Below, piece by piece: positions 1,526 through 41,575 of a stretch of 64,000 nucleotides of DNA (position 1 is its first letter; each line of letters opens with the position of its first letter). This DNA is from Gossypium raimondii. Its lineage: Eukaryota > Streptophyta > Magnoliopsida > Malvales > Malvaceae. The notes below the pieces were generated by a model, which worked only from the letters and a program-made list of their open reading frames with translations, did no database searches and had not been told where the DNA came from. Location: NCBI RefSeq assembly GCF_025698545.1, contig NC_068569.1, positions 12,028,001 to 12,092,000 of the forward strand. The letters are read 5' to 3'. The position numbers were made by a program, and so were the translations under genes.

Positions 1526-2822
1526 TATGTGCCATCATTTTCATTCATCTCGATTTTGTTCCCTTAGTAAGAGTCATAAAAGGTGTTCCCATTTCCCGAA
1601 TATTTCCAAAACTTACATTTGGTCCTGTTTTATGGTGTTACTTGAACCTAGGTATTAGTGCCGGATATGGATGACGGTATGTTCATTTTGTTTTTCAGAT
1701 TTCTTCATGTATTTGGAAAGTTATATTTCCATATCCATGTTCAAGTACGTGTTGGACAAAATTGTCAGGCACGTATGTCAGAACAATAAAGAGTTAGAGC
1801 AACGTAGCCATAGTGGTTTAGAAGACAAGACATGGAAGAGGTAGGAATTGATGCATGCAAGTTCAAGTTGAAGTTCAACCCTGTGAAGCTGATTGTAACA
1901 TGAGCCTTAGACTGTGACCCTTAGTTAACCTAGGATGAATCAGAGTTTACAGTTCTACAAGTTTTTTTGGTTCATGTAATTGAAGCCTTTTGTTTTTTTT
2001 TTTTTTCTTAAATCTATGACAACTTGGCATTTCCCCTTTTGCTTTTGTTCGTTCTCTCTCCATTTATTTGTTTTTTTATACTCTACTTGAAACTGCACCA
2101 CAGGCAATCACCATGTCATGTGTTACGGGGACCTCAATATTCAAAATTAAAAACATTTATTTTCAATTTAGTCTCTGGTGTTTTATAACTTTATATGATT
2201 CATGTTAGGTATGATTAAAATAAAATAAAAATTCTAGTTTTAGTGATATCTTTTACAGTGTTTGGTAGGTAAGGGATTTCCCTTTTTCTTGTTTCTTTTT
2301 TTCTTTTCGGTAGGTGAGAAGTAAAAAAAGTCAAGGGAAATGAGTTAAACAATTTCTTTTTCAAATAGAGTTACTTACTATTGAAACTATTAATTTAACT
2401 AGTAAAACCAAAAAGAACAAAGAAAATGTGAATGATGTTTTTTATAAAAGCTTTAAAAACTTCAAAATAAAAAAATTATATTCTTTTTTTTTTTTTAATT
2501 TTAGTAATGAAAGGACCTTATAGAACCAATTTCAATAGCTTGAGGATGTAGAAGCAATTTAGGATGAGGGTTTTGAGGATGTTGTGTTGTTGGATTTAAA
2601 TAACCTATTTTAGTGCTTTTCCCTTTTCTGTTTTTAGTTGTTGTTGATGATGTATATTTTCAATTTCCAAATGGTGTAAAATTACTCGCAAACTAATTAA
2701 AATTTAAAATTCTGAATCCTATGGTTAAGCTATGTAAATGTAAGTGCAAACGAAAAACATTTTTCCTGCATGCTCCTATGTGTTGTATCTATGTAGAATT
2801 TGATTGAGTTCAATTTTATTTG
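1526..2822. other. MraY 3' UTR and spacer
   Basis: The stretch after the MraY stop has unbiased composition to about 2.1 kb, consistent with 3' UTR sequence. It then becomes AT-rich with homopolymer runs. I see no further gene. Confidence 0.5.
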
Positions 2823-3451
2823 GGATAACGTTGCATTTAGTATCTAGAATTTCATAAAATGTATAATCTGGTACTTATATTTTGAAAGTGGTGGTACTTG
2901 AACTATCAATATATGTTTTATCATGGTACCTAATGTTAACATCATTATTGAATTGTTAAACCAACTAATCAAAACTCAACAAGTATATTTATCAACTCCA
3001 TATGGATAATACAACATTATGAGAAAAACTAATTTAAAAACAAATAAATACTAAACTTACATAAGTAAAAATATCATCTTCTCTTTTTAAGTAAATGACC
3101 CTCTTTTCCAAATAATTTTCCATTAAAATAATATTTTTATTATTCAAGGAAGTACATATACTTTCATGCAAATTTAGTATCTACTACTTTTATTAACCAT
3201 GTGTTTAGTTATTTGTTTTAATTTATTTATTTATTATTTTATTTAGTTTTTCACATAATATTATATTATCCACGTAGACTTAATGATTTAGAAAAAAATT
3301 ACGTGTCTAATTTTTATTGGTTAGTTTAGCAATTTACTAACAGTGTTAACATCGAGTATCATAATAAAAATATATTAATAGTTCAGGAGCATTTTCAAAG
3401 TACTAGATTAGACATTTTATGAAAATACAAATACCAAATATGATATTATCT
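2823..3451. repeat. Long foldback (MITE-like) element
   Basis: The two ends are imperfect reverse complements over roughly 200 bases. The left arm has TTTCATAAAATGTATAATCT and TGAACTATCAATATATGTTT; the right arm, read on the minus strand, has TTTCATAAAATGTCTAATCT and TGAACTATTAATATATTTTT. There is no coding capacity, and a non-autonomous DNA element is the simplest reading. The outer limits are approximate and I did not find a clear target duplication. Confidence 0.6.
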
Positions 3452-3455
3452 TATT

Positions 3456-4459
3456 TTATTTTAATATTTTATTAATGATGATTATATGTGGTAATTTTAA
3501 ATTTAAAAAACATTTAATTATTTATTTGACGAAATAAAACTTAATTAATTAAAGATTGATATTAGTACAATTATGATTGAAACGAACTATTTATGAGCAT
3601 GATAAATTGGTATTTATGGGTAATAATAAAGTATAAAGTTGATGATATATGAGTGAAACTGACATGAAGTTGGCAGTTAGTGAAGTGGTGGTCCATGCTT
3701 TCCATCTGCATTGTCAATGTTGTATCTTTGTATTTAGATTTTCATAACTTTAACGTCTTTTAGTGTTCGTCTGTTCACAGCTGAGATTGTAGTAATAAGG
3801 TATTTTGTGTCTTTTATTTTTATAGTGTTAGGTGTAATAATGAAGTATATCGTAATTTCAATTTCAAATCTTAAAAGAAAAACATCTCAATACAACAATT
3901 TCACTATAACATACTCAATAATATAATTTCGAATTTCATATGATGATCTGACGGTCAAGAGTGTTTAACGCCCCAGGTATGACCTGAGTTTGAGTTGTGC
4001 TAGTCATGTTTATTGTTTGGGCTTTGCCTTATTATTATTTCGGTTGGAATGGTAAAATCAAGTAAAAGTATCAAAGAAGCATATGTAATTTGTGTTTCGA
4101 TCTTTCTATTAAAAAATGCATAAATTAATCTTAATATATTTCGAAGCATGTAAATTAGTCTTTCCACTAAATTTTATCTCTTAAATGATGATGTGGAATG
4201 TTATTTTAAATGATTAATTACTAATTTAGTCCTTGAATTATAGCTGAAAACCATTTTAATTTTTTTAAAATTTCTTAACAATAATTTTAAAAAGTAAAAA
4301 TCTTAAATATAATTAAAATATTAAAAATCATGTTAAAACAAAATCAAACCCAGATTTATTAAAGCCAAATGTTACATTCAAATAAATTTTTTTTTCTGAA
4401 AAATTGAGCTCACTTTCAATAGTAGGGAGATATTTTCATCTTCAATAAGATTCTCGATT
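3456..4459 (+). repeat. Duplicated block R1
   Basis: This block matches the sequence downstream of CYP710A copy 1 almost base for base: 11311-11718 continuing at 18101-18758, once the inserted solo LTR is removed. It includes a short SINE-like segment and the left arm of a foldback element. It therefore looks like the 3' flank of a CYP710A unit whose gene is no longer present to the left. The match stops abruptly near 4459. Confidence 0.75.
3935..4035 (+). repeat. SINE-like short repeat, copy 1
   Basis: About 100 bases with a phrase like a tRNA-derived promoter (CCCCAGGTATGACCTGAGTT, close to a B box). The same phrase recurs at 18196-18292 and, inverted, at 38415-38512. The A box is not convincing, so the SINE class is tentative. 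Confidence 0.4.
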
Positions 4460-4732: not shown

Positions 4733-5583
4733 TATTATATTTAGAATAATAAACACCTTAATTATCAAATGAATATTAGTTCACATTGATGATATTTTTT
4801 ATTATGAGAAAACAACAGTAATTTTATTTCCGACTACAATTTTCTCCACCCAAGTCTGCAACATAAGCATATTTATTTAACTATTTTAACTTTGCTTGGG
4901 CTTTATCAACTAATTTAATTGATTAAGTTGAATATCGAAAAGTGCAGTGTATGTGTTCCATAATGATATTGCATCAATTTTATGGATTTTGTAAATTAAC
5001 TTTGAAAAGACCAGAATCCTTATTAGGTTTATTGCCAAACTGTCGGCAGCTTGCCAACAAAGAAACTAAGAATTAGTAATTAAATTCCATTGGTTGATAG
5101 AAATTTTAGGAAAGGATGAATTGTTAACGTTGTTTTGTTGTTAAGAAAGTTCATTGGGGTTGACAAAAAGGTTATGGAAGAGTACAAGCATAATAAAAGG
5201 AAAATAAGTTCAGCCGAAAGATATAAGTAATCAGCCGTAATGAAAGTCGTGACATGTGTGAAAGAGAAATGTTCCAACTACGGTCATTTTATAATCTTTT
5301 CCCTAATAAAAGTAACAATATTTCATTAAATTTATATTTTAATTATTTAACTTTAAATAATTACTTTTAAAAATTCTTATTTAAGTCGTTCGACTATTAT
5401 AGTATTCTTTGTTTACATCACGTGCATCAATCGACAATTTTCTTTCTTCTTCTTTTTTATGATTTAGTTTTTTTTCTTCATAAAACAGTTTTGAATGTTA
5501 CAAATTTGTGAATCAAAACTTAAATAATTTTCTTCTCCAATATTTGACACTGGCAGTCAGATCAACTTTGATCTAAGGTGTTT
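4733..5583 (+). repeat. Duplicated block E1 (pair of 36059-36904)
   Basis: About 850 bases nearly identical to the block that follows CYP710A copy 3 (36059-36904); even a fortuitous 65-codon minus-strand frame inside it translates identically. A more diverged relative lies at 28320-28700 behind copy 2. E-type blocks therefore belong to the CYP710A duplication unit. The match ends at about 5583, where a GC-rich composite insertion begins. Confidence 0.8.
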
Positions 5584-6697: not shown

Positions 6698-9393
6698 AGA
6701 CCTAACCATGGGCCGGGCCGGGCCCAAAATTTTTTTTCGTGTAACACCCCTTACCCGAGACCGTCACCGGAATCTAGTACGAGATGTTATCCAATTTAAC
6801 TTACCAATTCGGAGCATAAAAAATTTGTTTTTAAAATTAAATTCACTGTTCACAACAAAACTGTCTACCTGCGTGACTTTCACTAATTTAATTATAACTC
6901 GAGTTACAGAACTCAAAATTTAAATCCGTAAATTTTCCCTGAAAATAGACTCATATTACTACTTACCATAAAATGTTCAGAATTATTGACTTGGCCAATT
7001 AGTACAGTTTATTCATTAAAGTATCCCCTGTTTCACAGCTCGACAGATCTGACCTCTCGGCACTAAAAATCAATTATCTCTTTGTACAGAATACATATAA
7101 GGTTATCGTTTTTTTCTTTTGAAAATAGACTCACTAAGAAATCTACACATATAAATTATGACCCATAATTCTTTCTGTACAATTTATAATGATTTTCTAA
7201 AGTCAGAACAGGGGACTTCAAAAACCATTCTGACCCTGTCTCACTAAAATTCAAATATCTCAAAATACAGAATTCCTTTTCCTACATCGTTTCTTTCATA
7301 TAAAAATAGACTTGATAAGCTTTAATTCCATATATAAGTCACTCTCTAATTCCATTTCTACTATTTATGGTGAATTTTACATTCACGTCACTGCTGCTGT
7401 CAAAGAAACTGCTTCTTTGAATTAGTTACCATTTACACATACATAATACCAAAACATAATCTTTACTAACCATTTCAATAGCTAATCTTAGCCATATCAT
7501 TTGATCATGCTCAAAATGATTAAGACTCTATACATGCCATAGTTCAAACATTTTGAAAAGCACATAATACCGAGATGGCTATGATAGTGTGATACGACTC
7601 CGACGGTCCACTATTCGATCAAGTTCAAATCACTATAAAACAAAGGAAAGAAAGAGATGTGTAAGCTATAAATAGCTTAGTAAGTTACATGTAAACAATA
7701 ATTACTCATTTAATAATTAACACTTTTAACATATAACTAATCAAAACATTTCTTAGCAATTTCAATCACTTACACATGCACAATCTTACCAATTCACTTG
7801 CATATACATTTTCACACTTAACATTTCATATTCACTTTAATTCATTATAAATCCCGTTGAGCAGTTGGAATATACACGGATACGTAGAGATTTAGCACAT
7901 AAGTGCCACATCGATATGTAGCCGGCTACCACCGATATGTAGCCGGCTACCACTTGAAATGTAGCCAAGCTACCAGCGATCAATAACACTGAAATGTCCA
8001 CGGTTCCGCTCACACAAGTCGTCGGTGTCTGCAACACATGCTAGATCACCCAGCACCGGGACTCATCAGAACACTCTTAACATCTGTAACATCTGGTCTC
8101 TAGTGACATGTCACTTGTATCCAATTCTATTCCTAAGTTCAACCGGAATTTACACTTAACACTTTATTACTTGAATAATTCATGAACAATTTTCCTTCCA
8201 CATTCAATATTAATTCACATATCAAATATAATTCACAATTTATACAAATATAACTATTATTTACATATAACTTACCTCGGATGCAAAACGACTATTTTTG
8301 TAATTTAGTCGATAACTTTCTCTTTTCCGATCACTTCCACTATTTCTTCTTTCTTGATCTATATTAACACAATTTAATACATTTTATCAACATTTCATTC
8401 AAATACAATTCATACACAACATTTTGGCAAATTTACATTTTTCCCGAAACTTTTCAAAATTCCACTTTTGTCCCTAAGCTCGTAAAAATAAAATTCACTA
8501 AATTTTAAATTTCAAACTTCACTAAATCATATTTCATGCTCATAACAGCCCTCAATTTCACAAAATCACAACTTTATGCACACTTTACCATCTTTCACAA
8601 TTTAGCCCTTTTCAACATTTTCATCAAAATTCATCTAGTAAAACTTGTAATTAACACTTCAAACATTCATTATCTAACATCACTAATCAATTTACAATTA
8701 TATCATGAATGGGTCAATTTTTAAACTTTAATTTCATTTAAATTAAATGGTAGAAACATGAAATTCAAGCTTCAATAAGCATAAAAATACGAAAATAATC
8801 AAAAGCGGGCAAGAAATCACTTACAATTGAGCTTAGGAAGTTCAAGAACCCTAGCTATGGTGACATGAATTTTTTGGCAGCAAACGTCTGATTTTAAGAA
8901 GATGAACACTTGTTTTCATCTTTATTTTGTCTTTATTCAATTTGGACAAAATGCCCTTGACCCATTACTTAGATATTTTTCTAGAAATACCCTTTTGTGT
9001 CCATAACACTAATTTATGGTCTAATTGCCACATAAACACTTCCAATTTCATGCAATAATTCAATTAAGTCATTTAATCACTAATTAGACACACTTTGCAT
9101 TTTTTTCAATTTAGTCCTAAAAATTCAATTAAGCACTAAAGCATTAAAATTTCCTATCCATATTTTCACACAATATTTCAATCAATCAGTAACTAATAAA
9201 AATTTATAAAATTAAACTATTTCACTTCGGATTTGTGGTTACGAAACCACTATTCCGATTAGGCCCTATTTCGGGCTATCACATTTCGGCCCTACTCCTA
9301 GGCCCGGGCCCGGCCCAAAATATGGGCCTAAAATTTTGTCCAGGCCCGGCCCGAGCAAAAATCATAGGCCCAGGCCCGGCCCGGCCCATTGGC
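6698..9393. mobile_element. GC-rich TIR element, copy b, split by a solo LTR
   Basis: Two pieces, 6698-6739 and 9284-9393, read as one GC-rich element when the solo LTR between them is set aside; they align with 5716-5850 of copy a. Only the left half of the family is present, and it runs directly into a GGCGCC box at 9390. Confidence 0.75.
6740..9283 (+). mobile_element. Solo LTR 1 (LTR retrotransposon fossil)
   Basis: A 2,544-base segment that starts TGTAACACCCCTTACCC, ends GGGCTATCACA and is flanked by the perfect 5-bp target duplication TTTCG (6735-6739 and 9284-9288). No internal region, primer site or second LTR is present, so this is a solo LTR left by LTR-LTR recombination. Its terminal sequence matches the start of the LTR at 38685-41575 read on the minus strand, so both belong to one family of large LTRs, probably Gypsy type. 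A short internal run of repeats lies around 7905-7975. It is younger than the GC-rich element it splits. Confidence 0.85.
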
Positions 9394-9667
9394 GCCTCTC
9401 AGAATGGCACCACCATTGGCGCCTCCCAGATAGGCGCCAATACTATGTATTATGCGGGTTCTATATTAACCCGAAAAAGTATAAAATTATATTTTATTCA
9501 AAAAAAAAATTTATTATTATTTTATTCATTGGCGCCTATCTAATAGGCTCAAATGAAAAAAGTAACCAATTTTGGTAAATACTTTTTCTGACACCCTATT
9601 TCAGTAATTTTTTTTTCAACCTATTTATGTAAAAAACCCCCAATTTTCCTCTGCGCGCCCAGACGAA
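9394..9667. other. Right part of the GGCGCC composite insertion and truncated CYP710A leader
   Basis: GGCGCC boxes and a short AT-rich run lead to about 9640. From there a sequence equivalent to the CYP710A copy 3 leader (ending CCCAGACGAA before the ATG) begins. The proximal promoter present in copies 2 and 3 is missing here. Confidence 0.6.
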
Positions 9668-11176
9668 ATGTTATCTAATTTATCCTTTCTTTCGCCTTTC
9701 GCCCCATTTTTTGTCACATTTTTGCTTCTTTTTCTTTTCGTAGAACAAATCTCTTACTTGCGTAAAAAGAGAAATGTCCCTGGCCCCAATATCATCTTGC
9801 CTTTTTTGGGCAACGCCATTTCATTAATCACAAAACCAACAAGCTTCTGGGAAGTTCAAGCTGATTTGGCTGCTTCTCTTGGATTTTGTATTAATTATAT
9901 CATCGGTCGCTTCATCGTCTTTATCCGAAACACCGAGCTTTCCCACCTTATCTTCGCTAACCGCCGACCCGATGCTTTTTTACTTGTGGGACACTCTTTT
10001 GGTAAAAAGCTTTTCGGTGAACATAACATGATTTATATGTTCGGATAGGATCACAAAGATCTTCGCCGTCAAATCGCTCCTAACTTCACTCATAGGGCTC
10101 TCTCTACCTATCCTGCATTGCAACAGATTATCATTCTCCAACACTTACGGTCGTGGGAGCGTCTTTCCTCGGAATCGCCGGGGAATCCGATTTATTTCCG
10201 CCTTTTAGCTCGCGACATGAATCTCGAAACCTCTCAAATTGTTTTCGTGGGCAGGTATTTGTCTCATGAAGCTCGGGAAAAGTTCAGAGACGATTATAAT
10301 CTATTCAATACAGGTTTAATGAAGCTCCCGTTTGATCTCCCCGGTTTCGCGTTCCGAAACGCCAGGCTGGCCGTTGAGCGATTAGTCGAAACCCTTAGTG
10401 ATTGTGCTACTCAAAGTAAAAAGAGGATGTCTGAAGGAGACGAGCCTTCTTGTTTAATCAATTTTTGGATGCAAGAAACTGTTAGAGAAATAGCGGAGTC
10501 CAAAACGGCGCCACCTCGCTCTAGCGACGTGGAAATCGGCAGTTACCTCTTTGATTTTCTCTTCGCCGCTCAAGACGCCTCCACTTCGTCGCTCCTCTGG
10601 GTGGTGACCCTCCTCGACTCTCATCCCGATGTTCTCCAGAGAGTTCGGGAGAAAGTGTCAAGGATTTGGTCGCCGGAGTCGGATACTTTAATAAGCGCAG
10701 AGCAACTGAGGGAAATGAAGTACACTCAAGCAGTGGCGCGTAAGGTTATAAGATATCAGCCCCCGGCGGCGCTAGTACCGCACATTGCGATGAAGGATTT
10801 CCCGTTGACAGAGCCGTACACGATTCCCAATGGCACAATTGTGTTCCCCTCGATTTACGAATCATCCTTCTAAGGGTTCACGGAGGCGGACCGATTCGAA
10901 CCGGAGCGATTCTCGGAGGATAGGCAAGAGGAGGTGATTTTCAAACGAAACTACCTGGCACTCGGTGCTGGGCCCCACCAATGCGTGGGCCAAAGGTACG
11001 CCTTGAATCATCTGGTACTTTTTATTGCCATGTTCATCACGGTGCTCGATTTCAAGCGACACTAAAACGAGGGCTGTGATGAAATCATGTATTGCCCGAC
11101 CATCTGTCCCAAAGACGGCTGCCGCATCTCCTTATATCAGAGGTGCCCACGTTATCCCAATCTCACTTTGAATTGA
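9668..11176 (+). pseudogene. CYP710A-like sterol C-22 desaturase, copy 1, stop-interrupted
   Basis: An intronless P450 sequence, colinear with the intact copy at 24470-25978 and exactly the same length (1,509 bases), so there are no net indels. Three in-frame stops interrupt it, at codons 127 (TAG, 10046-10048), 402 (TAA, 10871-10873) and 466 (TAA, 11063-11065). In addition the invariant Glu of the K-helix ExxR motif (codon 359 in the intact copy) is Lys here, and the Phe before the haem loop is Leu. The N-terminal membrane anchor, the I-helix AAQDAST and the haem loop [13 protein letters not shown] remain readable. The shared 5' leader is short and the shared 3' flank runs to 11313. It is a dead member of the tandem array; transcription cannot be judged. 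Confidence 0.9.
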
Positions 11177-11718
11177 CCAAAAAGCCCTCCAATGTTCACT
11201 CACCTTCTTATTCGGTAAACTTGGTTGCTCTCTCTGATTTGTTCTTTGCTACTTCTCACGTCCTTGAAGGTTGGGACCGTCACACTTTGTTTGTAGCTAT
11301 GATTCTTTTGTTTTAATATTTTATTAATGATGATTATATGTGGTAATTTTAAATTTAAAAAACATTTAATTATTTATTTGACGAAATAAAACTTAATTAT
11401 AAATATTGATATTAGTACAATTATGATTGAAACGAACTATTTATGAGCATGATAAATTGGTATTTATGGGTAATAATAAAGTATAAAGTTGATGATATAT
11501 GAGTGAAACTGACATAAAGTTGGCAGTTAGTAAAGTAATGCACATGTTGGTTGGAATCAAGCGGTGGTCCATGCTTTCCATCTGCATTGTCAATGTTGTA
11601 TCTTTGTACTTGGATTTTCATAACTTAACGTCTTTTAGTGTTCGTCTTTTCACAGCTGAGATTGTAGTAATAAAGTATATTGTGTCTTTTATTTTTATAG
11701 TGTTAGCTGTAATAATGA
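11177..11718 (+). repeat. CYP710A 3' flank joined to block R2 (left part)
   Basis: Bases 11177-11313 match the flank after copy 3 (35484-35619). At about 11311 the sequence switches to block R (equivalent to 3456-3862) and is interrupted at 11718 by solo LTR 2; block R resumes at 18101. The switch point marks a duplication or deletion junction. Confidence 0.7.
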
Positions 11719-13238
11719 TGTATCACCCTAACCTCAAACCGTCGTCGAAATAGGATTACGAGGCATTATCAGTCATATCAAATAATTTACAAATAATTCT
11801 TAAATAAATAACCAACATATTAAAATGATTCATAAATTGTTATAAATTTTACTAATTGATTTAATTCATTTTTATAAAAATTTCGGCAATATTTCTACCT
11901 ATTTTTACATAAAACCCTAATATAATCATCAAAACACATAATATCTTACTTTACAACAGAACTATATAACCTACCAAAATGACTATTATAATTCCTATGT
12001 AAATGCCACTTTCATTTAAGGAAGAAACATCACCGTAATCTCTATGCAGGAGTTGGGATTGACCTGGATGCTGAACCGAGACTCAGACCCCTTTTTCAAC
12101 CTGCGCACGGAAACAACCGTACGCTGAGTATTTTATACTCAGTGGTATTACCATAATTCAAATTATAATAGCAATAAAGAATTGTAATTACCAAGCATGT
12201 AACTATCCGATTTTTTTTTAAATATCAATTAATTCATAAACTTTCATTATTTAACAATAACAATAAAATTTTTAACTATTCCTCAATCTCACTCACATAT
12301 CACATGTAACAATTTCAATCACTACATAAACATTAAATTCATGCCTTTTATTTTCAATATCAATTTTCAATCTGCAAATTTTAAATTTTCTCATATTCAA
12401 TACCACAATCGATCAAATTCATTTGATTTTCTCATTTCAATTATTCACCCTATTAACAATCTGGACTTTGACGGATACACGGATTCCAACCCAAACACAC
12501 CAGTACGGCACATTGTGCCTAAAACGGTACATATTTCTTGATTAGTATACGACACATAAGTGCCTGAAACGACACACGAGGTGCCTGATACGACACATAA
12601 AGTGCCTGAGATACGACACATAAAGTGTCTGATCAGCAAAGTCGATAAATCCCGTACTCCTCCAAATCCTATGGCATGCCAACTATATCCGACTTAGTCC
12701 GACTAGTTAATAGGGTATTCAAATCATTTTTCTATTTCAAAATCAAGATCACTTTTCCACTTTCTAGTCAATTAACAATTTAATACCAATACATATTTCA
12801 AATAATCACATATAATCATATTTCAATTCAATTCAAACCACTTTTCAATCAATACACAATTCACATTTTCATACATATTCATAAATTAATTCATTTTATT
12901 TAATTCATATTTTAAATTCATTTTTCAATCAAATTCAAATCACTAATACTTTTTAATCAATATACATTTCAAATACTCACATATTTCCATCATTCAATTT
13001 AATTTGATTCAATTCAAGTCACTATTATCATTCCAAATGCTTACCTAATTTTACTTACCATGCATTTTAATTAAAATATATCAATTAATAATAAATAAAT
13101 TTGAATTATAGTAATACAAACCCGAATTTGCTCGATTATTCCTCAATAACCTTCTTTTTTCCTTTGTCTGCCGATGCCTCGAGTTCTTTGTTAGCTACGA
13201 AAATAATAATAATTTACACTATTAATTACAACATTAAT

Positions 13239-13239
13239 T

Positions 13240-13286
<47 letters not shown>
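13239..13286. repeat. (TAA)n microsatellite
   Basis: About 16 uninterrupted TAA units inside solo LTR 2. Confidence 0.95.
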
Positions 13287-13288
<2 letters not shown>

Positions 13289-13876
13289 TTTCTATCTAAT
13301 TTATACTTTAATTCTAATTTAATCCTAACTAAATTTATTTACTTTTCTAATTTAATTCACACTCTATTTCTATTCAAATTTCTTCTAAACTCAAATTTAT
13401 CTACTAATTTTCAGCACTTTTCACTAATTTCGAATTTTCCTCAATTTAATCCCTAAAATTCAAAACTTGTAGTTTAGTTTACAATTCAATCCCTTATTCA
13501 ATTCCAAATAAAATTTCTATCAAATAAATCCTCAATTCCATCATTTATTCAACATAAACCCTACTCAAAAAATCTATTAACTTTCAAACTTTCAACTTAA
13601 ATCCAAGGGCACGTTTGGTTCGCTGTATTGGTTTAGAGGTGTATTGGATTAGAGGCGTAATGGAATAGAGATGTAATAGCAAATCAACTGTTTGGTTGAA
13701 TGTAATGGAATAGAGGCGTAATAGTAATCTTGTGTTTGGTTGAATGGAATAGCATAATGGAAAAAACTAAAATGACTAGAATACCCTTAGCATAAATTTA
13801 TTTTGGTAAATGATTATTGTTATTGTTATTTAAATTTTAATAAGATTATTAATATCAATAATAAATAATTTAATCA

Positions 13877-14161
13877 TATTTAAACATAACTATTATTAAA
13901 TATATTATAATTAAAATATATAATTTAATAAAATTCTTAATAATTAATATTCTTATATGAATATTACTCAAATCATAATATATGATACTATAAAATATAA
14001 ATTAACATAATTATTATTAAATATAGTATAATTAAAATATATAATTTAATAAAATTCTTAATAATCAATATTCTTATATGAATTTACTCAAATCATAATA
14101 TATGATACTATAAAATATAAATTAACATAATTATTATTAAATATATTATAATTAAAATATC
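13877..14161. repeat. AT-rich tandem repeat, unit about 121 bp
   Basis: About 2.3 units; each contains ATTCTTATATGAAT, CTCAAATCATAATATATGAT and TAAATTAACATAATTATTAT. The array ends abruptly at 14161, where unrelated unique sequence begins. Confidence 0.85.
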
Positions 14162-14533
14162 ACAGAGCTTTTTCATTTAGCGTGCGGTTTGTTTATTCTT
14201 TGCACAAGCATCGTGATGTCAAGCTCTCAATGTGACGATAAGGACAAGTTAATGAGTTACATCTCGACCTAGAACCCCCAAAATCATGTCATCAACTCGA
14301 TAGTTTAAAATTTTTACAATTTGATCCTTATTCAATCTTAAATTATCTATTGAGCTTCAGAACTTGTACAAGTCTCGCATACGATTGTATAACATGATAA
14401 AATGATATTTTGAACTTTATAATATGTACTAATTGTTAAATTGAATTGAAATTGATCATAATTGTTCTGACAACAAGTATGATATCCCATAACTCGAATT
14501 CGACAATCGAGTTGGGTATAGAATGTTACAAAT

Positions 14534-14698
14534 CTATAATGTGGGCAGTTTATTATTCACATTCATTGCCGGAACATTTCCACCGTTACCTAGATTAGGT
14601 ACATTATCTGAAAAAGTAGGCCTCAGATCTGTTGTTTGAGAAACTGGGGAAGATTCCATAGTCGCATCACCCTGTGTTAATCCAATTGCTTTCACGTC
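14534..14698 (-). pseudogene. Open exon-like segment, possible second captured gene piece
   Basis: On the minus strand a pyrimidine-rich tract and TTTAG precede an open frame of 54 codons (DVKAIGLTQGDATMESSP...) that ends in TAG at 14534-14536. I do not recognise the protein. It is Ser/Asn/Gly-rich and does not match the proteasome sequence expected downstream of the neighbouring exon at 14885-14954. Its entry phase (0) equals the exit phase of that exon, so splicing would give an in-frame chimera. Transcription is unknown. Confidence 0.4.
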
Positions 14699-14884
14699 CT
14701 AAACATGATCCAAGGGAAAACTTTTAAAATTCTATGACTTGTGCACATATACCCGAGCTTAGAAAAATCCAAAACCCTGATAATATAAAAAAGATACAAA
14801 AATAATGCTAAAAAATGGAGCAGTTAAGAAAACCATTAATTTTGGTATTGAGAAATATAATCAACTATTATCAATGAGAAATAC

Positions 14885-16828
14885 CTGATACAATTGTGGA
14901 CCATTGTCATCGTATCCAGCAACTAGTAGAGACACACCAAAAGGCCTTACACCACTACAAAGAAAAAGAAAGATACATCAAACTTACCATCAAAGCAAGA
15001 GGATTGCACAATTTAGCATTTTCACTTTTTTGGTCCAATTCAAACGGACTCAAAACATAGCAGCAAGGCCATGGATCATAAGGCATGTGAAAAATAGTGA
15101 TCTACAACATTGCCATTTTTCTCTGAAGTTCCCTTATCATATTCCACTTTCAGCTCCGAGATAATGCAAAACTATTAAGGCCAAAATATTAACTTTGATT
15201 AATAGAACAGACCAAAGCTACAATACCATGATTTGATCTGACATAATTTTTTCCCAGATGCACATAGGTTAGAAATTAAGTAAACTAAGCGTCATTAAGA
15301 GCCATCAATACCTTATACAATCTATGATATTTATTTCTTTGCTTTCTACTTTTCCGAACCAAAACTCGAAAATCAAGGCCCATACCACTGCAGAACAATA
15401 TGAAGATTTATGTGAATCTATATATCAAGAAATATAGAAGTTATATTAGCAGCAAAGAACTGTATTAAAACATAGAAATGGTGATGAGCTACTTACTTAG
15501 TAGCCTAGTAATCAAACCTACGTATTTTGAAAGAAACGCATTTCACCTTTCTACATGCCTAACCATCTTTCAAAATCAAAAGCACAGTCTCCTTTCTTTT
15601 GTTGGATATAGCAATACGTGGCACAAAATAATAAACCATAAAAAAAACTATATTACATGGTTAACAACTTACAGAGCTTCCTTACAAAAAAAAAACCATA
15701 ACAAGACAGCAAGATCATAAATAAAAAATTCTTTGACAAATAGGATACGAGTAAATGAATTCTTCATATATCTATCAAGGCATAGAACAAAAAGTAAAGG
15801 AAGGAAAGCTTTTTAAAAAAGGAATAAATTCCATGAAACAAAAAATGGTCATGTACTGGATAGTCGATATTTAGAAAATGAGTATTCTACGATAGACCAA
15901 CTTATGAAACGTGAAGTTAGTAACTTAGGGTGCTCCTTTTGAACTCCCTGTTTGGTAAGTCAACAATGTCATAGATGCACATGAACTGGTACTTGCTCAA
16001 GACATTGGCGAAACACAGAGATAATTGCAGATTTAATTTTCAAGCGCTTTAATGCAATATGCATGCTAATCGGATCCAATATATCTCCAACTAAAAGAAC
16101 AAAATAACCTAGCTTTCCAGATAATTGCGAATGAAAAAAACATAAACAACTCCAATATTTGGTGTCGACACATATTTTCGAACTCAAATCGGACATCAAA
16201 TGTCCATATTTTGTGGTAATTAACAAAAAATCATCAGCATGGAATTAGAAATTGAATACCCTAGGCTTTTAATCTTCATACATTATAAAGTTGAATTGCT
16301 TCAAAAGAACTAACTAATTCTACCAGGAAAAGAAAACTAAAGCATCATCAATTATCAGTTATCTTTTACATGATAACATAGAACCTCACATATTTTCTCA
16401 AAACAAAAACTAAATGTAATTAAGCAAGTACAAGCATTGCATGTTTCTATCGCTGGGCCTAATTTTTGGTAAACCCAATACCCAAGGTCATATTGACACC
16501 GAGGTCGATGTAACATGGGAAAATCTAGAAATTCAAATGCAGATAGAAAGTGTGAGTGTATGGTACTAAATAATATACTCACAGAGGTTTCATCAACCAA
16601 GATTGAAGGCAATTTCTTCTCAAGAGTAATTACCACCCCATTAGCAATTGTAATTTAAAACCATTTATTAGCATAAAAATCAAAATCATCAAGAACTTTT
16701 TACTACTTCTAAAATCCCAAAACCCTTTTTAAAAAGAAAACAAAGAAACCTTTGATTCCAAGAGATGTTTGACCCGATCCTACTGCTGTCAAGGCGTGCT
16801 CGATCTGAACTAGCTTTCCTGAAGGACT
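14885..16828 (-). pseudogene. Captured 20S proteasome subunit alpha-2 (PAB1-like) fragment
   Basis: Four exon-like pieces on the minus strand match plant proteasome alpha type-2: 16750-16828 (PSGKLVQIEHALTAVGSGQ and onward), about 16577-16645 (GVVITLEKKLPSILVDE), 15312-15390 (GMGLDFRVLVRKSRK and YHRLYK) and 14885-14954 (GVRPFGVSLLVAGYDD). Each has plausible splice signals and intron-like DNA between. The first exon (normally MGDSQYSFS...), the exon between RLYK and GVRPF, and the C-terminal exons were not found. The intact subunit is about 235 aa and builds the outer ring of the 20S core. This copy is incomplete, lies wholly inside a TIR element and is most likely non-functional. The pyrimidine-rich DNA at 16830-17260 may be captured leader or promoter. 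Confidence 0.8.
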
Positions 16829-18100
16829 GTTCAAGAACACAACAAAAAAAAAGAACTTTTGTTTTAAAAAAATTATGAAATATAGTACATTAACAAAGCT
16901 ATAAAGCGATGAAAACATTACAGAAAAGAAATATTCCAAATTTGAGCACAAGCAAAAGCAAAAGCAAAACAAAATCAAAATCAAAATCGATTTTACAGAA
17001 AAGAAAAGAAAAGAAAAACAGAGAAAAAATTTGGAAGAAGAAGCAGAAATCTGGAGAAAAGAAAATGGAGAAAATAAAAGAAATGTGAGAATAAAAGAAG
17101 CGTACCGTACCAGAAGAAGAAGTAGAAATCTTGAAGGGAAAAAATTGGGAAACGTCGGGAGAGGATGAGGGCAGAAAAAGGAAGAGGAGACGCAATGAGG
17201 AAGCCAATCGGAAGGGTAAAACAGGGAGGGTAAACGATGCAGCAACTAAACTGAGCAAAAGGGTTGTATTACAAATCGGTGGTTTTCACCGATTAGATAA
17301 GTAATTGATTACACGCGTAATAGCAATACATTGAACCAAACGACGGAATAAAGAGGGATTAGGTGGGGGCCCACCGATTAGGGGTGTATTGGCTATGCCA
17401 ATACACCCAACCAAACATGCTGCAAGAGTATTTCACTTTAGGATTCTAAAAAACATCAAATTTATGAGAAAATGACTTGATTTAGCTTACCTATTAAACT
17501 TCAAGTTTCAAAATCTCCATTTTCCCCCTTTCTTTTCTTACCCTTTTTCTTCCCCTGTTTTCGTCTTTTTCTCTGTTTCTTTTATGGTCTTCTCTTGTTT
17601 CTTTGTCTTTTTATTTTACTTACTTTACTTTATTTCTTTTATTTTAACTAATAATATATTATATAAAAAATATTTTACTTATTATTTAAGCATATATTTA
17701 TCTTTATTACAAGTGTACCTATATAATTATTACTATTACACTTGTCTTTAATCTTTACCATACATTTGTCATCCATTTAGTTTATTTAATATATTTTAAT
17801 ATAATATAATATATAAAACATAAAAATCTAATATTTTTATCACTTATTCTGCCCCATTTCTTATTAATGGCTTAATTTCCATTTTAATCCTTGTTATTTT
17901 CTATTAATCTATAATTCAACTTTTACCCCTAGTTCAATTTAGTCCCTTTTCCTAATTTCTCTTAATTAAACTAAACTCACCTAATTAAGCACTAAACTAA
18001 ACTCTTAATTACTTCTAATAATTATTTTCGAACTCAATTTACTAAGACGGAGGCCCGATATTATACTTTTCCGATGCCCGTGAATTTTTGGGTTATTACA

Positions 18101-18758
18101 AATGAAGTATATCGTAATTTCAATTTCAAATCTTAAAAGAAAAACATCCCAATACAACAATTTCGCTATAACATACTCAATAATATAATTTTGAATTTCA
18201 TGTGATGATCTGACGGTCAAGAGTGTTTAACGCCCCAGGTATGACCTGAGTTCGAGTTGTGCTAGTCATGTTTATTGTTTGGGCTTTGCCTTATTATTGT
18301 TTCGGTTGGAATGGTAAAATTAGGTAAAAGTATCAAAGAAGCATATGTATTTAATAGTAATTTGTGTTTCGATCTTTCTATTAAAAAATGCATCAATTAA
18401 TCTTAATATATTTCAAGCATGTAAATTAGTCTTTCCACTAAATTTTATCTCTTAAATGATGGTGTGGAATGTTATTTTAAATGATTAATTACTAATTTAG
18501 TCTTTGAATTATAGCTGAAAGGCATTTTAATTTTTTAAAATTTCTTACCAATAATTTTAAAAATAAAAATCTTAAATATAATTAAAATATTAAAATCATG
18601 TTAAAACAAAATCAAACCCAGATTTATTAAAGTAAAATGTTACATTCAAATAAATTCTTTTTGGTGAATCATGATTTTTTTTCTGAAAAATTGAGCTCAC
18701 TTTCAATAATAGGAGATATTTTCATCTTCAATAAAATTCTCGATTTGATGAAAACTAT
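18101..18758 (+). repeat. Block R2 (right part)
   Basis: Resumes the paralogy to 3863-4459 directly after the AATGA target duplication of solo LTR 2. Includes a SINE-like copy at 18196-18292. Confidence 0.75.
18196..18292 (+). repeat. SINE-like short repeat, copy 2
   Basis: Same 100-base sequence as 3935-4035, carried along in block R; here the B-box-like phrase is GAGTTCGAGTT. Confidence 0.4.
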
Positions 18759-38684: not shown

Positions 38685-41575
38685 TGTAACAGCCTAATTT
38701 TCAGTGGTGTCAGAAACAATGATTCGAGATCACTAAATCTGACAAGTGAGTCTTAAAATTTAATAAATTAATAATTATGGGTCAAGTGTGAATTTAGAAG
38801 AATTTTTGAATTAGTGAATTTTGTGATTTAAAAAGAATTTAATAGGTAAATTGGGTCTAAAATACGGTGTCGAGACATCGAGTTCATAAACCGAGCCATA
38901 AATATTTTTATAAATATTTATGGAATGTCATTGAGTTAGTATAAAAGTTTCGTTAGAAAATTTTAACGTTTGGTTAGTCAATTAACTAAAAAGGACTAAA
39001 TTGAGAATAGTGTAAAACTTGTTAAATTATGATTAAATAGCTTAAGTGACTAATGAGGAGGATTTAAAAGGCAATTAGGCCCAAAATTTTATGGGCTGGA
39101 CGGTTAGGCAAGAAAAATCAACAGGAAAGTAAGGAGAAATAAGAGCAAAATTGGAAATTTTACAAATTAAATATATAAAACAAAGATAAAAGTGAAAAAT
39201 CTAGAGATATCATCATTTTTCTTCAGCCAAAACGTAATAGGAGAGGGTTTTCAAGCTGGTTTTTCATATTTTTCATCACGTAAGTTCAATTCTTGCTTTT
39301 TCTTTGAAATTTTCATGTTTTGTGACTTTTACAACTAGGTCCAATTATTGAATTTATTAGTTTTTGAATTTATGAGTGATTTTGTAAGTTACCATGAATA
39401 ATTTCTGGAATTTTATGATGAACTATTATAGATTTTAAGTCTTAATTTCATTATATTATGATCTTATTAAAATGATTTTAGTAGAAAATGATTTTTAGGG
39501 CCTAATTGTGAAAAAGTTAGGAATTGGGGTTTTGTACTGAAATTATGAATATCAAAGGCTGTTTAGTAGCCTAAAATGGTTAGATAGGGTGTTAATTGAA
39601 AAAAAAAAATAGATCAATTGAAGGGTTAATTGAGTAGGGACCAAATTGTAAAAATTGTAAATTTTGAGGTAAAAGTGTAATTTTGAAAATTGAAAGACAT
39701 AAATTGTGAAGAAAATTAGTATTGAATTAGATGCTAATGAATGGAAAATTTTATATTATAGATCGGGAATCCGAAGATAAACGCGGTAAAGAGAAAGTAT
39801 CGAGCTAGTTTCTGAACTTTTACAACTTTTACGAATCGGCCCAAGTAAGTTCATATGGCTGAATTTTTATGATTAATTGTTAATGTGGAAATGATATATT
39901 GTATAAATTCGTATATTGTTACTGAATTATGATTATGGTAAAAATGAGAAGAAGATGAGATTGTTAGTTCAAATTAAGGGATACGCAGGATTGAGTACAC
40001 ATGTTTGGCAACCAACGACGAATTGACGGATAAGTCCATGGTGGATCCATGGCAAAGTGTGAAAAGTAGGTATGGTGTTTCGGTGAAGAAAACCATACTG
40101 AGTTGTAAAAAGTAGGTATGATGTTTCGGTGAAGAAAACCATACTGAGTTATGAAAAGTAGGTATGGTGTTTCAGTGAAGAAAACCATACTGAGTTGTGA
40201 AAAGTAGGCATGGTATTTCCGTGAAGAAAACCATACTGAGTTATAGCAATGTGAAATATTCAAGCAAATTGTGGCACCGGGCAAACGATGTACTCAATTC
40301 CGTAAGACTATCCTTAATTTGACAGGTATTTGTAAGTGCAATTGAAGCTAAATGTCGGAATAGAAGTTGACATCTGATATTGAGCTCGATTGGATATATT
40401 TATTATCTGAGATTGTGGTTGGCAGGAAATGTTGAATTTTTATTTGTTTGTTAATGTTGTTAGTGAAATTTTGGTAATATTTTATTATGAGCCTGTGAAC
40501 TTACTAAGCTTTCTGTAAGCTTACTGGTGTGTGTTTACTGTTTCTTGTAGATTGACGTATATATATATTTCGGAGGATCGGATCTACAACAACGATCACA
40601 CTATCCAGATTTACTCCGGTAGATTTTGTTAAACAACTTTTTGGATTTATATGGCATGTATAGGGAATTGAAGTAAAAAGTATTAGTATGAATGACTAAG
40701 TATGCAAAATAAATTTGAATGTTATGGTTGTGTTAGATATCGAAATATATACATGTTTTTAGTTTGAAATGGTTGATTGGTTGAACTTCATTAGTATTTA
40801 AATGAAGTAGTTGAAATACTGGAATTGGTTGTGATTTAAATTTGCAGGGAAGGTTAGATAATTATAAATGGGTTATATTGAAATTTTTTTAAAAATTTGT
40901 AATGGAACAGTTTTTGGATATATGCATTAAGGTAACTTTGAAAATCATAAAAATGGTGGAAATTGAATTAGAAGCTGAGTGAGATACTAAATTAAAGCTG
41001 AATGAGTCTACTTTTACATGAAAGAAATAGATTAAGAAAAAAAGTTGTATATTTTTAGATATTTGAATTTTAGTGAGACAGGGTCAGAATGATTTTGAGG
41101 TCCCCTGTTCTGACTTTAGAAATTCATTAAAAATTTCACAGAAGGAATTATGTGTTATAATTTATATGTATAGATTCCTTGATGAGTCTATTTTCAGGAG
41201 AAATAAGTGGAAGCACCATATGAAGTCTGTACAAAGAGATAATTGAATTTTAGTGACAAGAGGTCAGGATGGTCGGTCACTGAAATAGGGGAGACTTTAA
41301 CTAATAAACTGTACTAATTGGCTAAACCAAAAATTCTGAAAAATTTAAGGTGAAAAGATATATGAGTCTAGTTTCAGGGAAAATTTACGGATCTAAATTT
41401 TGAGTCTCGTAACTCTAGTTATAATTAAATAAGTAACTGCTGTGCAGGTGGACAGATTTGCTGTAAATAGTGAAATAAATTTTCAAACTAAGTTTTTATG
41501 CTCCGAATTAGTAAGATAAGTTAAGTAATGCCTCGTGCTCGACCCCGGCTACGGTCTCGGGTAAGAGGTGTTACA
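38685..41575 (-). mobile_element. Solo LTR 3 (LTR retrotransposon fossil)
   Basis: A 2,891-base segment with TG...CA ends and the perfect 5-bp target duplication TACAT (38680-38684, 41576-41580). On the minus strand it starts TGTAACACCTCTTACCCGAG, matching solo LTR 1, and shares internal phrases such as TCGGAGCATAAAAA. No internal region is present. It is longer than solo LTR 1, in part because of the 46-bp tandem repeat at 40062-40247. The family is probably Gypsy type. Confidence 0.85.
40062..40247. repeat. 46-bp tandem repeat inside solo LTR 3
   Basis: Four units starting at 40062, 40108, 40154 and 40200, each containing AAAAGTAGGTATGGTGTTTC and GTGAAGAAAACCATACTGAG with one to four differences. 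The corresponding part of solo LTR 1 (7905-7975) has a different short repeat containing GATATGTAGCCGGCTACCAC. Confidence 0.9.

Follow-up and report, generated by a model that had tools for sequence, protein, structure and literature searches.

How exons and introns of a proteasome subunit gene came to lie inside a solo long terminal repeat (LTR) is the question raised by a 64,000-nucleotide stretch of the Gossypium raimondii genome (C5:12028001-12092000, contig NC_068569.1 of assembly GCF_025698545.1; hereafter the window). The feature concerned, at 13607-17422, is a non-autonomous transposon of the PIF/Harbinger superfamily, 3,816 bp long and of the Pack type, with a segment of the gene for proteasome alpha-2 (PAB1) between its terminal inverted repeats (TIRs). 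We regard the overall scenario, namely a Pack-type PIF/Harbinger element that took up its PAB1 segment by serial templated capture and was then mobilised with it, as highly probable. The genome searched comprises 750.8 Mb, and as most DNA searches scored the best 40 candidates, the copy counts given below are lower bounds.

Ends, insertion site and superfamily of the element

An initial annotation, made from the letters alone, had recognised a TIR element at 13609-17420. The element itself stands, but alignment with its other copies places the two ends 2 bp further out on each side, at 13607 and 17422. The inverted ends that it described are indeed present and, by manual count, the 25-bp ends pair at 20 of 25 positions. 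The terminal features are as follows:

13604..13606, no strand: left target-site duplication CAA, found as a single CAA in the uninterrupted LTR at locus L044
13607..13631, plus strand: left TIR, defined by comparing ends across copies, matching the right TIR at 20/25 positions
13607..14160, plus strand: left element backbone, 96% identical to a transposase-bearing relative over 532 bp
17398..17422, minus strand: right TIR, likewise defined by comparing ends across copies
17423..17425, no strand: right target-site duplication CAA

The left backbone contains subterminal repeats (13631-13727) followed by AT-rich tandem repeats of ~120 bp. This tandem array (13876-14160 in the window) varies in length between copies, from ~0.3 kb here to more than 1 kb in L013.

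A perfect 3-bp target-site duplication (TSD) lies directly outside the ends in all 13 elements that were read at both ends, the window's included (the others being L009-L016, a split copy on C6, L021, L024 and the transposase-bearing L025+L027). These comprise TAA in seven cases, TTA in three, and TAT, TCA and CAA in one each, consistent with the 3-bp, typically TWA, duplications of PIF/Harbinger elements. Shifting both sides by 1-4 bp leaves 0-4 matches in 13, and shifting the right side alone 0-1 in 13. The relative L025+L027, 7,174 bp in length, shares these ends (left end 96%, right end 89% identical) and has its own TSD; L025 encodes both a Harbinger-type DDE transposase (DDE_Tnp_4, PF13359) and a second open reading frame (ORF) with a Myb/SANT-like domain (Myb_DNA-bind_3, PF12776). 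A PF13359 piece also occurs in L032, which has one of the two right-end types of this family (the A-type; only its right end was compared). Given the 3-bp duplications together with the Harbinger transposase in this relative, we assign the superfamily as PIF/Harbinger. The window's element matches the 7,174-bp element only in its two end regions, in agreement with the earlier statement that it carries no recognisable transposase and as is typical of Pack-TYPE elements.

Pack-MULEs are marked by a target duplication of ~9 bp and a Mutator transposase, in place of which we find 3-bp duplications and, in the relative, DDE_Tnp_4. A Mutator-like or hAT Pack element was nonetheless considered: many described Pack elements are MULEs (compare PMC13317346), and the terminal GTTTGGTT motif is not decisive by itself. 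Against it, the duplications measure 3 bp, and not 8 or 9 bp, in every one of the 13 elements, and the relative with these ends couples its DDE_Tnp_4 to a Myb/SANT partner. Both readings were dropped on these two grounds, and we consider the chance that either is correct negligible.

The insertion site itself is preserved elsewhere. At all 40 places scored (the best 40 of 1326 candidates) the LTR family passes the insertion point without a break, L044 being the one that was read out. These uninterrupted relatives and the CAA duplication together indicate a clean insertion of the element into an LTR that has its own duplication, AATGA, so that the nesting within a solo LTR proposed at the outset is borne out. 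The host feature is:

11719..18100, no strand: solo LTR, split by the element, with the 5-bp duplication AATGA at 11714-11718 and 18101-18105

The proteasome cargo, its donor and its copies

Between these ends lies the cargo for which the element was first noticed:

14855..16921, minus strand: captured PAB1 segment, exons and introns, 94.7% and 95.8% identical to the gene at C5:11660792-11664370
14882..14953, minus strand: PAB1 exon 7
15312..15389, minus strand: PAB1 exon 5
16142..16185, minus strand: PAB1 exon 4, with approximate bounds and its frame lost in the window copy
16583..16647, minus strand: PAB1 exon 3
16750..16826, minus strand: PAB1 exon 2

The peptides encoded by these exons match proteasome alpha-2 (best PDB chain 7qve_i, E 7.4e-31), which upholds the PAB1-like identity suggested earlier; the pieces share one strand and are accompanied by intron DNA, as had been noted, although they number five (exons 2, 3, 4, 5 and 7) and not four. 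A genome search with an Arabidopsis PAB1 protein sequence recovered two genes, on C5 and C10. The C5 gene (C5:11660792-11664370) is intact-looking, with exon pieces for residues 1-235, and lies 377 kb from the element on the same chromosome. The element matches this locus (L020) at 2501-4266 (94.7%) and 4750-5080 (95.8%), introns included, which is the intact counterpart with matching introns expected under capture. By comparison, the C10 paralog matches only piecewise, at 77-89%. Over the cargo, Kimura two-parameter distances to 11 copies are 0.030-0.048 for the C5 gene, versus ~0.40-0.46 for the C10 gene, whose introns align poorly. Since the C5 gene continues past both capture points, it is the donor or the closest surviving form of the donor. 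A host gene fragment between TIRs, with the gene present elsewhere, is what a Pack-TYPE element should contain.

In the window copy 1,248 bp separate the donor match from the left end of the element and 501 bp separate it from the right end; at none of the ten element loci whose ends were compared does the proteasome similarity pass beyond them. The window has just two further matches to the donor locus, of 78% identity (6880-7027 and 41284-41480), both to a stretch that lies upstream of the gene by more than 2 kb and is probably dispersed repeat sequence.

With the donor left out, PAB1 sequence is present in at least 13 element loci. Ten of these are complete with both ends and duplications (among them the C6 copy, split by ~12 kb), and three are partial or reduced (L019, L021 and C7:37.18 Mb, the last known from the genome search alone). 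The elements holding the PAB1 segment measure 3.8-5.1 kb and the segment itself 2.07 kb. The ten complete copies, with their differing flanks and own duplications, and the uninterrupted LTR site show that the whole moved as a unit, again as in Pack-TYPE elements. The same donor start and stop bases (2501/2502 and 5080 of L020) recur in the window copy, L009-L016, the pair of C6 halves considered together and L019, which points to a single capture. A mere segmental duplication that by chance left part of a gene near inverted repeats could appeal to the location of the donor on the same chromosome, 377 kb off; yet copies occur on C3, C4, C6, C8, C9, C11, C13 and C5, with the same ends, different flanks and perfect 3-bp duplications. 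The common ends with their duplications refute this explanation, to which we accord practically no probability.

The fate of the cargo bears on a further possibility, that the captured pieces encode a new functional chimeric protein under selection. The 54-codon exon of another host gene that accompanies PAB1 (see below) is open in 12 of the 12 element copies found, GTAATG, the splice donor of captured intron 1, survives in five of the eight copies shown, and the gene pieces share one orientation. However, each of the 11 aligned copies has a frameshift, a stop or a loss in at least one of the five PAB1 exons, making a working protein unlikely; exon 6 is deleted, and at the divergence seen here the 54 codons may have stayed open by chance. 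We dropped this reading after the exon-integrity test and hold it to be very improbable. Judged from the sequence, the PAB1 cargo is a decaying passenger, its exons broken in every aligned copy.

Upstream of the LTR lies one further degraded gene, a P450 as the initial annotation had it and putatively of the CYP710A subfamily named there:

9608..10873, plus strand: cytochrome P450 pseudogene with an in-frame stop at 10046-10048 and a Pfam p450 match on its second half only

GPGPA-rich reading frames at 9193-9578 of the window and 449-1014 of L046 appear by eye to represent the same dispersed repeat.

Other cargo, joins and the proposed order of assembly

The same ends, or the same backbone, also occur with cargo other than proteasome sequence. 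Apart from the transposase-bearing element, L024 (3,551 bp, TAA duplication) carries fragments of SHMT and MSH2, whose source genes lie on C4 and C9; this cargo is found at eight loci, whole at six and split at two. One MSH2 ORF failed the database search and another confirmed the name. L042+L026 (whose own left end is not in the fetched sequence) holds an ATP-citrate lyase piece, 97.6% identical to C10:47.98 Mb over 1,397 bp, and an exon of mS35. The latter exon (L042 799-1098) is shared, whole or in part, with the backbones of L024, L048 and L055, and so seems to be an older capture that the backbone has since absorbed. An aldo/keto-reductase-like exon in L037 and a kinase-like exon in L049, L050 and L051 were named by eye and recall, the former not confirmed by Pfam or PDB and the latter not confirmed in database searches, and the ORFs tried from L046, L047 and L054 yielded no gene name. 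Capture by a TIR element, as first proposed, is thus supported by ends that occur with other cargo, a donor located elsewhere and a match confined within the ends. The two outcomes by which the initial annotation would have seen capture refuted, similarity running on past the ends and ends found with this cargo alone, were neither of them observed. The suggestion that a 20S subunit is an unusual cargo does not hold here, because relatives carry other housekeeping genes.

The window's element likewise carries more than PAB1:

14161..14845, minus strand: earlier cargo, comprising a retroelement-like piece (~14240-14530) and the last exon of another host gene
14537..14698, minus strand: 54-codon exon of that host gene, 57% identical to a paralog on C12

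For the donor of this exon the genome search returned only the 57% paralog on C12, and Pfam and PDB gave no identity. L022 and L023 likewise hold the segment 14161-14845, joined there at the same base to other sequence and with no PAB1 match found. This suggests a serial capture, in which an element already bearing cargo would have taken up the PAB1 piece. L022 (C274) and L023 (C7:29.65 Mb) are nearly identical, each continuing into the same LTR-like sequence, and C274 may be an unplaced duplicate of C7. Separately, 14537-14698 of the window and 1863-2143 of L029 are distinct pieces, each resembling (76% and 79%) the same C12 locus, L043; a single member of a gene family may have supplied a part to each of two elements, though no direct donor of these pieces was found at high identity.

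The joins between the pieces are readable:

14846..14854, no strand: junction filler, completing the 13-bp repeat TATTTCTCATAGA in L013, L015 and L016
15184..15187, no strand: internal deletion point, where ~484 bp of the donor including exon 6 are missing, with the 7-bp microhomology TAATTTT in the donor
16922..17183, minus strand: remnant of a B-type right terminus, present in whole or part at 22 loci without PAB1
17178..17183, no strand: right-end exchange point, with the microhomology AAGGAA
17184..17422, minus strand: A-type right terminus, common to transposase-bearing elements

Two right-end types occur on the PAB1 cargo: the A-type on the window copy, L009-L012, L018 and L019, and the B-type on L013-L016. 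At the left PAB1 join, TATTTCTCATAGA is repeated 26 bp apart in the B-type copies L013, L015 and L016 and degraded in the window copy; on its pattern, the repeat is a templated filler, evidently copied from donor sequence 26 bp away. A B-type end follows the 16922-17183 remnant within 12 bp at 11 of the 22 loci without PAB1; the other 11 are not among the scored B-type ends (the best 40 of 156 candidates), and the scored A-type ends (the best 40 of 628) include none of the 22. The A-type copies thus keep the stump of a B-type end, which implies an exchange of the right end. Simulation of three joins gave chance probabilities of 0.001 for the 7-bp microhomology at the internal deletion, ~0.005 for 6 bp or more at the AAGGAA exchange, and 0.003 for 6 bp at the MSH2/SHMT join, where CAAAAC is shared, followed by one differing base and then TTT.

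We propose that assembly would have begun with a break in a B-type-ended element in which the exon of another gene was already present. The strand under synthesis in repair or replication would have jumped to the PAB1 gene, moved back by 26 bp to leave the copied filler, skipped ~484 bp at the 7-bp microhomology and then rejoined the element. The transposase of autonomous relatives could have mobilised the composite, and one lineage, the window's, would have swapped its right end for the A-type at the 6 bp of common sequence. Reading the joins as template switching in repair or replication is the interpretation that we lean towards, with some reserve. Several observations weigh against the scheme as a whole: the join between PAB1 and the right-end remnant and the left deletion join of the A-type copies show little or no, and little, microhomology, respectively; the MSH2 internal join shares only 3 bp; the filler at the SHMT internal join is without a visible template; L022 and L023 are known without their right ends; and the element in which the capture took place was not found among the loci compared. 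Moreover, in a donor-rooted tree over the cargo B and the donor together are split from the A group with a local support of 0.981, and B is grouped (0.905); the A and B groups come out as sisters, with A not nested inside B. As the tree itself leaves the order unshown, it is the remnant that places B before A.

The principal competitor is the fusion of two neighbours, as in the Pack-CACTA model, whereby insertions would flank PAB1, their inner ends decay and the outer ends mobilise all that lies between. It has been proposed for all Pack-TYPE superfamilies, maize Pack-PIF included (PMC8903248, in its available part), and the cargo here does sit between remnants of two element interiors. Further, at L010 (6718-6780; C3, ~47.330 Mb) a second right end of the family lies 137 bp upstream of the left end of the PAB1 copy in the same orientation, so that tandem neighbours, the proposed substrate of fusion, do exist. 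On the other hand, five donor loci (L020 and L038-L041, 1.9-7.6 kb each) show no match to the left end, the remnant, or the A- or B-type right end at a BLAST E-value of 1e-3; a single TIR-like 10-mer occurs in L041. The MSH2 and SHMT fragments, though derived from two chromosomes, are joined directly with no element sequence between them, and templated filler and microhomology mark several joins. We judge fusion unlikely and retain template switching as our working interpretation.

Known Pack-type systems and the orientation of the cargo

This is a known kind of gene shuffling, that of Pack-PIF elements, in a new case with unusually complete anatomy. Maize Pack-PIFs, surveyed along with those of rice, are described in the available part of the source as non-autonomous PIF/Harbinger elements with mostly TTA/TAA duplications, which hold host gene fragments and are multicopy; in cluster 18, whose elements average 535 bp, a second fragment was gained stepwise (163-bp and 58-bp fragments) (Gisby and Catoni, 2022, PMC8903248). 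The window's element resembles them in being non-autonomous and multicopy, with gene fragments added stepwise, and differs from the maize example in its 2.07-kb multi-exon, intron-retaining cargo, its identified donor and its visible right-end exchange. Gossypium and cotton have no occurrence in the main text of that paper. The Pifvine-3 PIF elements of grapevine contain stretches like host exons and introns, some common to several copies; there, in contrast, the foreign DNA is described as an extended 5' region and the family has ORF1 and a transposase, the latter being absent from the window's element (PMC2528002, available part). Rice Pack-MULEs, which multiply host gene fragments within TIRs, with some expressed as chimeric transcripts, are alike in working, but their different superfamily and target duplication preclude membership (PMC13317346, available part). 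The multicopy Pack-TIRs of metazoans, for which the FoSTeST model invokes template switching with microhomology or a short breakpoint insertion and then transposition, share the proposed switching, but are animal elements (PMC8277862, available part; "harbinger" does not occur in its main text). Going by titles and the beginnings of abstracts in the open-licence literature, we found no account of Pack-TYPE elements, Harbinger gene capture or transduplication in Gossypium or cotton.

The family shows a further regularity. All eight captured gene pieces that were named or traced lie on the minus strand of the element (two-sided p 0.008), as do all five database-confirmed ones (PAB1, SHMT, MSH2, ATP-citrate lyase and mS35; p 0.06); the other three, i.e., the 54-codon exon, the aldo/keto-reductase-like and the kinase-like pieces, are known from ORFs only. 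The sample is small, with loci picked by a common end or backbone and not by strand, and ORFs of no assigned nature, which occur on both strands, were left out of the count. The transposase and Myb ORFs of L025 share the minus-strand orientation. Given that the captured genes thus follow the direction of transcription of the transposase, the right end is probably a putative promoter, acting now or in the past, that would give sense chimeric transcripts. We also advance, tentatively and as rather doubtful, the idea that the family is a directional capture machine, in which template-switch repair would reach onto unlinked genes, only sense captures would be kept and right ends could be swapped.

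That Mutator and CACTA elements engage in Pack-type capture is well established, and the route by which the DNA enters remains under debate. The present family combines an identified donor, relatives lacking the PAB1 cargo, two right-end types on one cargo and readable joins that show microhomology and templated filler, so that template switching and the fusion of neighbours can be tested directly against each other. If the directional idea is true, one cargo could swap its promoter end and keep moving; if the one-direction rule holds, capture, or survival after it, would be coupled to transcription, and the bias of cargo to one strand is a simple prediction that can be followed genome-wide.

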